From Brasenia schreberi (taxonomy: Eukaryota > Streptophyta > Magnoliopsida > Nymphaeales > Cabombaceae), in assembly GCA_036023115.1 (NCBI GenBank), contig JAYKKT010000040.1, positions 3,221,501-3,285,500 of the forward strand: a DNA stretch of 64,000 nt, given 5' to 3'. Made by a program: the position numbers and the translations under genes. Of the stretch, positions 113-5,240 are shown in pieces (positions within the stretch are counted from its first letter, which is position 1; each line of letters opens with the position of its first letter). The notes beneath the pieces were generated by a model. That model saw only the letters and a program-made list of their open reading frames with translations. It searched no databases and was not told the DNA's origin.

Positions 113-452
113 TGTTGAAATTGCTGAGAAACGCAACAGATAATAAACACTAGAATATATTAATATAAAAGAAGAGTAACAACGAAGATCGGAGGAGGAG
201 ACAGACCTCCAATGGAGGCCGCCCCCCTCTTTCTCTCTCTTTCTTAATCTCTGCAACACTTAACCCTAATACAGCCTATCATCCCTTATATAAGGAGCTG
301 TAAAACATAAAATGACCAAAATACCCTTAGTATAGAAAATTATCAAAATACCCTTATGACTTCAGACAATTACAATAATACTCTAAACATCAATTTTACT
401 GTTCTAAGACATTATATGTACTAAAATGACTCTAAACTCATATTCTTCAACA
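113..452 (-). repeat. 3' LTR of the gene-capturing retrotransposon
   Basis: Direct repeat of 4901-5240, about 95-96% identical by eye. In element orientation it begins TGTTGAAGA and ends TTTCAACA, so it has the usual TG...CA ends. It contains a CCTTATATAAGG palindrome at 284-295 and a GC-rich hairpin sequence around 205-232. ATAAC at 108-112 is the adjoining target duplication. Confidence 0.93.
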
Positions 453-463
453 ACCCCCCTCAA
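453..463 (-). other. Polypurine tract of the LTR element
   Basis: On the minus strand this reads as a purine-rich run with six consecutive G (TTGAGGGGGGT), directly before the TG that opens the 3' LTR. This is the normal position of the plus-strand primer of an LTR retrotransposon, and it sets the element's orientation. Confidence 0.85.
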
Positions 464-574
464 GTTGGGAGTGAGATACTTCGAACTCCAAACTTACCAA
501 AAATCTTCATCTATATGCAACATTCTTCATCTGTCTTCATTACTGGTTTAATCTTTAACATCTTCTTTGGCTGT

Positions 575-876
575 AACATCTTCAACTCAGCCTTCATGAA
601 TGATCATATCACGCAGCATCCCTGACTGTAATATAAACTTAGCCTTCCTGGCTAATCATCTCAAGCAGCATCTCTGGCTGCAACATCAACTCAGCTATCC
701 TGGTTGATCATCTCAGGCAACATCTCTGGCTGCAATATAAACTTAGTCTTCATGGCTAATCATCTGAAGCAACATCTCTTGTTATAACATCAACTCAGTC
801 ACCCTGGCAGATCATCTCAAACAGCATCTATGGCTGCAACATCAACTCTGTCTTCCTGGCTGATCTTCATCATGAC
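575..876. repeat. 52-bp tandem repeat array inside the retrotransposon
   Basis: About 5.7 units with starts at 575, 630, 682, 734, 786 and 838. Four successive units are exactly 52 bp and the first is 55 bp. Each has the pattern AACATCAACTC, then CTGGCTGATCATCTCA, then CAGCATCTCTGGCTGC with substitutions. Alternate units share AATATAAACTTAG in place of AACATCAACTCAG, which suggests growth by duplication of a two-unit block. It lies near the polypurine tract in the 3' part of the element's transcript. No coding function is evident. Confidence 0.85.
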
Positions 877-1571
877 TTTCTTCATCACACGTGCACTAGT
901 AAGTTCTTTGAGGCTTCTGTAAAACAACTTGAATAATTAAGAACACATGGGTAAGACTCGACCCTTCTATGAGTGTCGGTTGCTCCCTCTCTCTTTCTTC
1001 TTCTCCATAAAGTGATTTGGCAGCTACACTTCAAAGTCATATTTCTTCTACTCTTTAGAAAGTTGATCCTCTTTGATAGGAGGTACTACTCCACCATACA
1101 CACTTCACACGGCTTTTCCTGCATCCCTTCACATAGTGGTTGCAGCTGGTGTGTTGGTTGGGTGCCCTTTCTGTACCACTCAAATAGCATAATACAGACA
1201 TCTGCATATACTAGTCGGTCTGCGCCCCTTCACATGGTGACAACAACCGCTTTTCCAGCCCTCTTGGCTGTTTACTTCAGTAACTCAAGGTTTTAAATTT
1301 CATGCTTCTTGGTGATACTGTCACATTCCATACCATCAAATTCCTCTGGCCTTTTCTTTGATTTGATTTGTCATGCACGTGTAGTGAAAAATACTGATTT
1401 TCTGCATTCTATTTTTCCTTCTATTTTCATTCATTTGTTTTTCGAATGAAGAAATCATCACTAATATGCTCAGAAGATACCTTATCATTTCTACTGCCTC
1501 TAGGTTTTGTTCCTGCTTCGCCTTCTTCACACTTCAACTCAACATAGACTTATCAATCCGAAATTACATCT

Positions 1572-2112
1572 TCACGGCTCGAAGGTCATACTTTCTGCTT
1601 CCTTTTTGATGGATTCAAACAACCGAGTTGAAAGGAAACATTCACTAAATCTGGGAAGATGGCAACTATGAGCTTCCCTTCATTTTCTGGCCGCTTGGCA
1701 ATTTTAATTGCAGCTGCTGCCGCCGACCCAGATGATATACCTATCAATAAACCTTCTTTCAGAGCAACCTGTTTGGCTGTCTCAATAGCTTCTTTACTTG
1801 AGATTTGAATTATCTCATCAATGAGATCAGCGTCCAAAACACCAGGAATAAAAAAAGAACAACACTTTCAACCGGTTCAATATCGTAGATCTTAATATCA
1901 GGATTCTGCTGTTTAAGATAGGAGCCAGCGCCTGTTATGATACCACCAGTTCCAATTCCAGAAATGAATGCATCCACCTTGCCATCAGTGTTTCTCCAGA
2001 TTTCAGGTCCTGTTGTCTCATAATGAATCTTAGGGTTAACAGGATTTTCAAACTGTTGAAGTACATAAGAATTGGGAGTTTTTGCATGCAACTCTTCACC
2101 TCTGGCCTTACT
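1572..2112 (-). pseudogene. Captured cysteine synthase (O-acetylserine (thiol)lyase) 3' fragment
   Basis: Cysteine synthase is the PLP enzyme that makes cysteine from O-acetylserine and sulfide. The minus strand encodes its C-terminal half: AKTPNSYVLQQFENP, HYETTGPEIW, VDAFISGIGTGGIITGAG (the glycine loop that binds PLP phosphate), and later EGLLIGISSGSAAAAA and IKIAKRPENEGKL. After a one-base frame change the normal end (LSTRLFES, then SMTFEP and a stop at 1572-1574) is present. About 18 codons are missing near 1850, after the sequence matching VEPVES, with another frame change. Plant genes of this family have several introns across this region and none is present here, so the source was probably spliced mRNA. 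The fragment is non-functional and shares the element's transcriptional sense. Confidence 0.9.
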
Positions 2113-2639
2113 CCAACACAATCTAACCAATCCAAATATTTCCTAATTTCTTACAAGCCTTCCTTTTTATTTTAATTGGAAGTAACAAATATGATTTGGA
2201 ATCAGGATCCATAGCAACATTTCCACCCTGTTTTTCTGGTGGAACTGTTATTTTTCTCCACTTTTCAAATTGCTGACCTTTATCATCTCCTTACCTTGAT
2301 TATCGCTACAGGAGCCTACTTTCTAGTTTCATATTTAGCAACATATTTTGCTTTACGAATAGCAGCTCTTAGCTTTCTTCTTTCTATCCATAAACCCGAT
2401 ACATGAAATCCAAGGAGGACTGCACGATGAGTAGCACTGAGGACTTCGGTGCCTTCTCTTAATCAAGTTAGCAGGGAACTGTATGCAGTCCGGTATTTTC
2501 TTGCACAACATATGGGCTTTAGAACGAACTTCAACGTATCCCCACTCTTCTATCTTATCTTTGGTTCCAAACACACCAATGAGCCCACCTTGAAAGACAG
2601 GAAGAAGCAGCAAGCAGCATAATTACACCAACAAGAGAC
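2113..2639 (-). other. Unrecognised captured sequence within the retrotransposon
   Basis: This stretch lies between the cysteine synthase and PPR pieces. An 86-codon minus-strand frame at 2353-2613 (containing KDKIEEWGYVEVRSKAHML) looks like coding sequence but I do not recognise it. Other short lysine-rich stretches occur in neighbouring frames. It is probably another host fragment or degraded element sequence. Confidence 0.4.
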
Positions 2640-3976: not shown

Positions 3977-4044
3977 CCATGTAAAAAGATCTCACTTTGT
4001 TTTACATCAACCCGTTGACTACCTCATGCAACCCTTTTTCATCT

Positions 4045-4263
4045 TCATTTGCAGAATATTCTTTCGGTAGTAGAGACTGGGCGGAGAAATATAACAATAA
4101 CAGTGATGTTATCTTTGCTTCCTCTTTCAATGGCTTCCATTGCGAGCCACTTTGCACACATGCTAGGCTCTCTTCTATTCATATCCTTATGTGGACCTGG
4201 CTTGACATGATCCAACTCCTCATTGTCGTCATACAAATGGAAACGACCCTTTGCATGTTTCAC
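4045..4263 (-). pseudogene. Captured protein phosphatase 2C C-terminal fragment
   Basis: PP2C enzymes are Mg/Mn-dependent serine/threonine phosphatases. The C-terminal signature is present on the minus strand: CAKWLAMEAIERGSKDNITVIV followed by FLRPVSTTERI. This includes the metal-binding SKDNITVIV block near the end of the catalytic fold. Upstream of it the frame contains RFHLYDDNEELDHV and PGPHKDMNRREPS, plausibly the preceding part of the same protein. The N-terminal metal sites are absent, so it cannot be active. It is co-oriented with the element. Confidence 0.82.
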
Positions 4264-4319
4264 ATTTCAATCATCAACCTAAACACCTTATCAATGAAGA
4301 AATTGTATATGCGTTAGGA

Positions 4320-4589
4320 GTAAAACCACTCTTTGTCAAGTGGAGACGCATGATTGCAGATATAAATAGCCTGTGTATTTGAGTATTCTGCACCTTCTAT
4401 AGTAATAGGATTCCCTAAAATCATCATCAGTAGCCTCCCAGTTACATGACCATACACATTCCCTTGCTTGATCCGCCCACACGGCCACGGCAGAACAATA
4501 AACATTATTAGCGTCCATATGAAAGTTGTACACAACATCATCAAAAAGCAAATGATAATCCTGATATAGAAACTACAGAAGCAGTCCAA
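4320..4589 (-). pseudogene. Captured 1-acyl-sn-glycerol-3-phosphate acyltransferase (LPAT) fragment
   Basis: LPAT acylates lysophosphatidic acid in the ER during glycerolipid synthesis. The minus strand encodes a hydrophobic segment (FLMMLCTTFIW, LPWPCGRIKQGN), GHVTGRLLMMILGNPITIEG, and AIYICNHASPLD, which carries the acyltransferase motif I NHxxxxD. It closely resembles the microsomal seed-type LPAT of coconut and relatives. The match ends directly after the motif, giving a sharp junction near 4326. The reading frame is continuous with no intron, consistent with capture from spliced mRNA. It is the 5'-most captured piece in the element's transcript. Confidence 0.88.
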
Positions 4590-4886
4590 CTATCATCAAC
4601 AGCATAATCTGTCCTGCTAGACTTACGTATCACCATACCCCTTTATGATATTCTGATGTTTTCACATTGAAATAAGCCTTTGACTCGGTGTAGTCCGTTG
4701 ACAACAAAAATACTCCACAGCAGCAGTACCTGCCTTGGCCGCTAAAGCCTCCGTTCAACCGTGAGAGTCACTCTGCGTTATCTGCCTTAGCACTTGCAAA
4801 AATTTCCATCTTCTGTTGGTCATCAGCACCATTCTCATTTTTTTTCGTATGTTGACAGCCATTGCTCGCTGCTCTCATTGATCGAA
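4590..4886 (-). other. 5' leader of the LTR element
   Basis: The sequence immediately downstream of the primer-binding site in element orientation. A short frame opens with a start codon about 40 bases after the PBS but soon meets stops. It is a plausible remnant of a Ty1/copia-like leader and gag start, without a recognisable domain. Confidence 0.4.
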
Positions 4887-4900
4887 CGGCTCTGATATCA
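4887..4900 (-). other. Primer-binding site (initiator tRNA-Met type)
   Basis: On the minus strand, TGATATCAGAGCCG directly follows the terminal CA of the 5' LTR. The standard plant PBS is TGGTATCAGAGC, so there is one mismatch. This is the minus-strand DNA priming site and confirms element polarity. Confidence 0.9.
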
Positions 4901-5240
4901 TGTTGAAATTGCTGAGAAACACAGCGGATAATAAACACTAGAATATATTAATATAAAAGAGGAGTAACAACGGAGATCGGAGGAGGGGGCGGACCTCCAA
5001 TGGAGGCCGCCCCCCTCTTTCTCTCTCTTTCTTAATCTCTGCAACACTTAACCCTAATACAGCCTATCATCCCTTATATAAGGAGCTGTAAAACATAAAA
5101 TGACCAAAATACCCTTAGTATAGAAAATTACCAAAATACCCTTATGACTTCGGACAATTACAATAATACTCTAAACATCAATTTTACTGTTCTAAGATAT
5201 TATATGTACTAAAACGACTCTAAACTCACAATCTTCAATA
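4901..5240 (-). repeat. 5' LTR of the gene-capturing retrotransposon
   Basis: Direct repeat of 113-452, followed by the target duplication ATAAC at 5241-5245. By eye it differs from the other LTR at about 15 sites, nearly all transitions. It carries the element's promoter. Confidence 0.93.
5072..5083 (-). promoter_or_regulatory. Palindromic TATA element in the 5' LTR
   Basis: CCTTATATAAGG is a perfect 12-bp palindrome containing TATATAA, placed where an LTR TATA box is expected. The same palindrome is conserved in the other LTR at 284-295. Transcription would run toward lower coordinates. Confidence 0.5.

Follow-up and report, generated by a model that had tools for sequence, protein, structure and literature searches.

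A 64-kb stretch of the Brasenia schreberi genome (GCA_036023115.1, contig JAYKKT010000040.1, positions 3,221,501 to 3,285,500; the window, to which coordinates without a contig refer) contains a 5.1-kb long terminal repeat (LTR) retrotransposon, a member of a family that numbers hundreds of copies, with pieces of six or more host genes in its interior. We propose that these fragments were very likely acquired by reverse-transcriptase template switching between the RNA of the element and co-packaged, spliced host mRNAs, because introns are absent, the cargo lies on the sense strand, pieces are joined in the middle of exons and the parent genes lie on different contigs. Contigs of the assembly are given C-numbers and fetched loci L-numbers.

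The element is a non-autonomous LTR retrotransposon, with matched LTRs, a primer-binding site (PBS), a polypurine tract (PPT), a 5-bp target duplication and no retroviral domain in the open reading frames (ORFs) scanned. An earlier note on this DNA had described the same signals, and they were found as stated: the LTRs align gap-free over 340 columns with 325 identities (324/338 in another alignment), the duplication ATAAC stands at 108-112 and 5241-5245, and this single LTR pair with a single target duplication belongs to one element. The LTR ends are of the TG..CA type, with TCAATA in place of TCAACA at one end, and we take the primer site TGATATCAGAGCC to be of the tRNA-iMet (initiator-tRNA) type, which is suggestive of the copia (Ty1) lineage. 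The absence of retroviral proteins, also claimed earlier, is borne out by the window ORFs scanned (10 ORFs, later 13 among 62), in which no gag, reverse transcriptase, integrase or RNase H domain was detected, and the other family members examined likewise showed no proteins belonging to the elements themselves. Rfam gave no match in window 1-6000, and Pfam gave no convincing match for the ORFs of the 3' block and core that were tried. Hypervariable 3' repeats of the kind seen next to the PPT are known from other LTR elements. The features, by position, are as follows.

108-112, no strand: target-site duplication ATAAC, left copy, read in the sequence
113-5240, minus strand: whole element, 5.1 kb
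113-452, minus strand: 3' LTR, 325/340 identical to 4901-5240, with copies elsewhere in the genome
453-461, minus strand: PPT GAGGGGGGT, directly before the 3' LTR
584-868, no strand: 52-bp tandem repeats beside the PPT, their extent differing among copies and relatives
870-1466, minus strand: conserved 3' block (family backbone), scored at further genomic places
1570-2101, minus strand: cysteine synthase (OASTL) cDNA piece, covering residue ~130 through the stop and bearing a private 48-nt deletion
2136-2510, minus strand: multi-copy stretch, 84-94% at several loci
2520-2685, minus strand: carboxypeptidase-like first exon (C57:2608609-2608770, 92%), with a GT donor at the exon end in the parent
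2677-3242, minus strand: PPR gene piece (At1g73710-like), frameshifted; 94% to the single-exon gene L027 and 95% to the broken copy L026
3294-3637, minus strand: conserved core separating two cargo slots; L011, L017, L018 and L020, whose cargo is different, match it at 74-82%
3676-3761, minus strand: further pieces of the PP2C locus on C89 (3' region), after the EEAAF piece
3762-3921, minus strand: exon piece taken to be EEAAFLRSLG-type, with matches of up to 97% at 19 places in the genome other than family members
3938-4171, minus strand: protein kinase and PP2C-like, C-terminal end with stop and 3' region (parent C89:41775441, 91%)
4166-4278, minus strand: unnamed gene X, two exons joined (C74:9760108-9760301)
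4280-4338, minus strand: short PPR-like piece, present in sister elements too, with a PPR domain in the matching L011 ORF
4334-4697, minus strand: LPAT piece, two exons joined, ending mid-exon (parent C68)
4690-4733, minus strand: upstream LPAT-locus piece, reached by a 105-nt jump without a canonical splice
4888-4900, minus strand: PBS TGATATCAGAGCC, adjoining the 5' LTR, copia-like
4901-5240, minus strand: 5' LTR, pairing with 113-452
5241-5245, no strand: target-site duplication ATAAC, right copy, read in the sequence

The cargo pieces all run in the same direction, and their reading frames are broken in the window copy. Searching the assembly (1.055 Gb, 92 contigs) with the cargo sequence located the parents on six contigs (C68, C74, C89, C88 or C87, C57 and C81), and since they were found in the same genome, several of them exon by exon, chance cannot explain the cargo. 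Of the five fragments that the note had named, LPAT, PP2C, PPR and cysteine synthase are supported by protein similarity, whereas the EEAAFLRSLG-type piece is present under a tentative name; its count of at least five unrelated host fragments has since grown by a second PPR-like piece, gene X, the carboxypeptidase-like exon and the multi-copy stretch. The LPAT piece is 83% identical to a Nymphaea colorata protein and the PP2C piece 85% identical to an unnamed Victoria cruziana protein, whose relatives are named 'protein kinase and PP2C-like'. The PPR piece is nearest to Victoria and Nymphaea thermarum proteins in protein searches, and in the genome it matches a single-exon gene on C88 as well as frameshifted copies on C87 and C68. 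By these protein similarities the host would be a relative of the water lilies. Protein similarity searches gave no name for the carboxypeptidase-like (SCPL), EEAAF and 2136-2510 pieces; the first is presumably SCPL51-type, and the bases that follow it in the element presumably fit the next exon of that gene.

Comparison with the parents indicates that the cargo derives from spliced transcripts. Eight intron-like gaps of three parents are missing from the window element, and each of the four joins resolved to the base is a canonical splice. The junction of LPAT exons 2 and 3 is an exact canonical splice from which a ~2.6-kb intron of the C68 parent is gone, the one canonical intron of gene X (~80 bp) has been exactly removed relative to the C74 parent, and two joins in OASTL are exact GT..AG splices of the parent part that was fetched. 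The OASTL parent (C81:11873643-11877056) matches in seven exon pieces separated by gaps of ~66-1094 bp. Besides the two gaps at the exact joins, a further one in the fetched part coincides with the private 48-nt loss of the window copy; sister element L060 keeps those nucleotides, joined. For potato, a passage of PMC11641898 gives 11 OASTL genes, each with at least eight introns. In sister element L037, four GSK3 exons are joined exactly, with three introns (~118, 870 and 78 bp) gone, and are followed by a PRMT5 portion from which two introns are gone; the parents were located on C69 and C65, and C74 and C39 hold close copies. The exon shuffling proposed in the earlier note therefore needs qualification: the cargo consists of spliced mRNA sequence, yet the switches from gene to gene, as far as they have been read, do not lie at exon ends.

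These switches are informative on how the pieces were joined. GSK3 gives way to PRMT5 mid-exon in both parents. At the gene X-PP2C join both parents contain AGAGCC, with the PP2C side mid-exon and the gene X side lacking a GT donor, and at the PPR-SCPL join both parents share GTCTTTCTT, with the PPR side mid-exon in a single-exon gene. Two jumps within genes show shared CGG and AAGTC. Parent-to-parent identity of 3-9 nt was thus read at four of the five joins tested; on the strict count, in which the element must equal both parents, two joins retain 6 and 3 nt, and the values of 9 and 5 are parent-to-parent readings. Of random joins made between these parents, 0.7% reach 5 nt, 0.24% reach 6 nt and 0.03% reach 9 nt. 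The joins fit template switching among spliced mRNAs in particles, guided by microsimilarity, as modelled in the part of PMC5408686 that treats this process.

The same joins bear on the possibility that the chimeras were made by splicing, LTR-started transcripts having gained exons of other genes by cis- or trans-splicing before their reverse transcription. Introns are indeed removed, the LPAT piece ends at NHASPLD, at first sight an exon end, the GSK3/PRMT5 switch lies next to exon-like matches, and an exon end is possible at the gene X side of the X-PP2C join and at the SCPL side of the PPR-SCPL join. However, the gene X side has no GT donor, the GSK3-PRMT5 switch is mid-exon in both parents, and the switch falls inside an exon on the PP2C and PPR sides, as does the end of the LPAT piece, so that splicing-made fusions, set aside once the parents of the LPAT end and of the GSK3/PRMT5 switch had been read, appear very unlikely. 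Read-through transduction, in which a transcript through neighbouring genes into a downstream LTR is spliced and reverse transcribed, would also yield sense, spliced cargo and is described for plant retrotransposons in a section of PMC13317346; however, no two of the six parents were placed on one contig, their coordinates are in the megabase range, and pieces begin or break off inside exons, which leaves this route a shade less probable still. A series of separate insertions, namely of LINE-made processed pseudogenes and repeats (LINE, long interspersed nuclear element) placed singly into a small LTR element, could draw on the LINE-like ORFs seen by eye in L016 and L048 and on the multi-copy nature of the EEAAF piece and of 2136-2510, but the pieces are sense-strand and several joins show short identity; moreover, no internal duplications or poly-A tails at piece ends, and no separate termini of nested insertions of the kind the earlier note had named as a counter-indication, were noticed, although no systematic search was made, and we regard this explanation as highly improbable. 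Equally improbable is DNA-level capture of genomic fragments by repair or gene conversion, given absent introns and sense-strand cargo, even though many fragments of many genes are typical of Pack-MULEs and Helitrons (PMC13317346, in the section on these elements).

Template switching between element RNA and spliced mRNAs is further supported by the orientation of host domains across the family. Stop-to-stop ORFs of at least 50 aa from the cargo slots were compared with Pfam at E up to 0.001 in two sets, the first from eight elements (62 sense and 68 antisense ORFs) and the second from 18 further loci anchored on the 3' block (77 sense and 97 antisense ORFs). Sense ORFs matched 16 Pfam families in the first set and 24 in the second, against none and one (DUF5648, 4e-4), respectively, for antisense ORFs; the numbers of matching sense ORFs (17/62 and 22/77) are hand-set lower bounds only, and the family counts are to be preferred. 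Before the ORF counts L030, L032, L035 and L047 were dropped as duplicates (of L029, L009, L029 and L042, respectively), as was L019, whose match pattern equals that of L018; L001-L009, L013, L014, L016 and L021-L028 stand outside both sets, L016 having been scanned separately.

Host Pfam domains in sense orientation (E up to 0.001, elements scanned singly) were found in 20 of the 27 elements sampled, namely the window element, L011, L012, L016, L017, L018, L020, L029, L033, L034, L037, L039, L040, L041, L043, L044, L046, L048, L049 and L050; L012, L049 and L050 fall below Pfam's own cut-off, leaving 17/27 above it. L031, L038, L042 and L045 gave no host domain in the ORFs tried, and L010, L015 and L036 are counted among the 27 without a single-element ORF scan. 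At least two unrelated Pfam families occur in each of seven elements (the window element, L011, L017, L018, L037, L040 and L041). The loci were picked by LTR or 3'-block similarity and not by cargo, as best matches rather than a random draw, and cargo is partly common to some of those counted (the window element, L010 and L015; L012 and L015). For nine of the 18 anchored loci we infer that the cargo lies inside an LTR pair, the 5' LTR being outside the stretch or unrecognised in it.

The mechanism that we envisage starts with host mRNAs that would be packaged in the particles of a copia-type helper, the predicted source of reverse transcriptase in trans. During cDNA synthesis the enzyme may jump repeatedly between templates, aided by short sequence identity, and would then return to the element backbone, which would let strand transfer and integration finish. 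Later rounds of transposition and recombination between cargo elements, with the core as a likely switch point, may have produced the present copies. Here we further speculate that the lineage could be a dedicated mRNA scavenger, in which the 3' block and the core of the long form serve as strand-transfer stations and new spliced mRNAs are taken up in nearly every cycle, an idea that we put forward tentatively and at somewhat less than even chances. If true, the lineage would do at the RNA level what Pack-MULEs do with DNA, and would in effect be a natural library of shuffled cDNAs in which one element holds several genes.

Movement of the cargo after its capture is suggested by its distribution. 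Loci on C63, C65 and C75 share 581 nt of slot B of the window element at 97%, and L015, which is among these loci, is flanked by a target duplication of its own, in agreement with the earlier view of a mobile, cargo-bearing element; by sequence comparison, the cargo appears to have moved, or to have been copied, after capture. At a locus on C85 the match to the window element, 770 nt at 95%, covers slot A sequence and the beginning of the core. Since slot B is common to the first three loci but slot A to C85, the window copy resembles a product of recombination between cargo elements, in which the switch may have taken place at the core.

Several observations weigh against template switching as outlined above or narrow its base. 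With regard to the joins, GSK3-PRMT5 shows no clean exact microhomology, the strict count is negative at three of the five joins owing to point changes between element and parents, and these five, out of about a dozen, are those for which both parent sides were available. With regard to splicing, the second PRMT5 join in L037 has point differences, canonical splicing does not describe the 105-nt LPAT jump or the jumps in the PP2C 3' region, the single-exon PPR parent is uninformative, and the comparison with parents covers two elements (window and L037) and, in part, L060. The EEAAF piece and 2136-2510, being multi-copy, may be repeats; one of the 165 antisense ORFs has a marginal Pfam match (the DUF5648 domain mentioned above); and five of nine LTR pairs have no clean 5-bp duplication at the boundaries used. 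Finally, no gag-pol relative with a matching LTR was found among the loci examined; helper and packaging are predictions.

The family to which the element belongs is large. A pattern of PPT and LTR start, allowing up to two mismatches, occurs at 778 places (398 + 380) and its reversed control at 0, so that the copy count suggested earlier yields hundreds of copies, most of the sampled ones with other cargo. The LTR query yielded 3505 candidates at first look; the 40 that were scored all have at least 89% identity, and the 12 loci fetched cover 16 of these 40 listed matches. Scoring of the 3' block added 34 places at 88-91% and one at 84%. Elements measure ~2.2-5.2 kb with LTRs of ~340 bp. In the long form LTRs, PBS, core and a 3' region with repeats and PPT are common, with cargo on both sides of the core, whereas the shorter form (~2.2-2.4 kb) has a single cargo slot and no core that could be found. 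The core is present in eight of nine LTR-pair elements, L012 being the exception; in those whose cargo differs, its identity to the window copy is 74-82% over 135-344 bp. Clean 5-bp duplications flank four of the nine LTR pairs (window, L015, L017 and L020) and, by reading, the short elements L034, L044 and L050. LTR distances in the nine elements with LTR pairs, the window element included, range from 0.030 to 0.078, and the resulting ages of 1.2-3.0 My assume a rice substitution rate of 1.3e-8. At five fetched PPT sites, taken from the first places listed, no pol-like ORF was seen by eye in the ~625 bp upstream, the contents being 3' block, repeats or other sequence. L013 (C57:6150241-6150583) has a family LTR and no interior match within 10 kb, and is probably a solo LTR. 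LINE endonuclease/reverse-transcriptase-like ORFs were seen by eye in or beside the family members L016 and L048.

Large retrotransposon derivatives (LARDs) have a large non-coding internal domain that is conserved across a family, and the interiors here differ between members except for the core and the 3' block, so that a placement among the LARDs was rejected. Gene-carrying terminal-repeat retrotransposons in miniature (TRIMs) are likewise non-autonomous, with 5-bp duplications and intron-free exons, and the soybean TRIM GmaRetroS15 carries up to three genes as exons without introns; the relevant part of PMC4717578 lists 30 such elements of 1,172-1,449 bp in seven subfamilies. Here, in contrast, LTRs of ~340 bp, elements of ~2.2-5.2 kb as against 1.2-1.4 kb, the 778 PPT/LTR sites and cargo that mostly differs between sampled copies place the family outside the TRIMs as that part describes them. 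Bs1 of maize resembles the present element in combining pieces of several host genes within one LTR element, but the account in PMC13317346 gives three genes, as compared with six or more here together with many relatives that have other cargo and share the 3' block and LTR.

A maize survey of 425 LTR elements recorded at least 189 captures of host fragments and, under its conditions and in the portion of PMC2774510 concerned, did not find two or more standard nuclear genes represented in any one element; the two cases agree in that LTR elements contain host fragments, whereas several genes per element are found here. In pepper, ~72% of NLR retroduplication lies inside LTR elements without gag or pol coding potential (PMC5664825, relevant section), which is similar in that retroduplicated host sequence resides in LTR elements, but concerns one gene family where unrelated genes are mixed here. 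Pack-MULEs and Helitrons, as portrayed in PMC13317346, are comparable as genome-scale carrier families with many different gene fragments, but they are DNA elements, whereas the cargo here is sense-strand and spliced where checked, which points to an RNA route. No comparable family was found in the full-text literature searched, which omits most subscription papers.

Host-gene capture by LTR elements is thus already known, and what is added here is a family of hundreds of copies, most of the sampled ones with different same-direction host pieces and several of them carrying more than one gene. As each gene-gene join would be a recorded template switch, and the LTR pair supplies a rough date for each element, the frequency and rule of mRNA recombination by reverse transcriptases become countable. 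The many chimeric gene pieces between LTRs are, in addition, a natural collection in which to ask whether any became new genes or silence their parents.

Some further observations concern the parents and the surroundings of the element. The parent genes occur in close pairs on different contigs (C81/C70, C68/C86, C69/C74, C65/C39, C89/C92 and C57/C46), with one member nearer to the cargo for OASTL, LPAT, GSK3 and PP2C, and look as in a recent polyploid. At C88:26130681-26130846 the stretch corresponding to query 1-71 is fused directly to the third LPAT piece with the middle exon skipped, and this is another captured or alternatively spliced copy. The right flank of the element (5246-6027, plus strand) encodes GNT-I (N-acetylglucosaminyltransferase I) from about profile residue 175 of 434, so that the insertion is probably within an intron of this gene and antisense to it; the upstream exons would lie left of the window. 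The plant is probably not a Nymphaea, since a variable region of the BEL1-like gene that the window itself contains has only 45% identity to the single relative listed, an N. thermarum protein.

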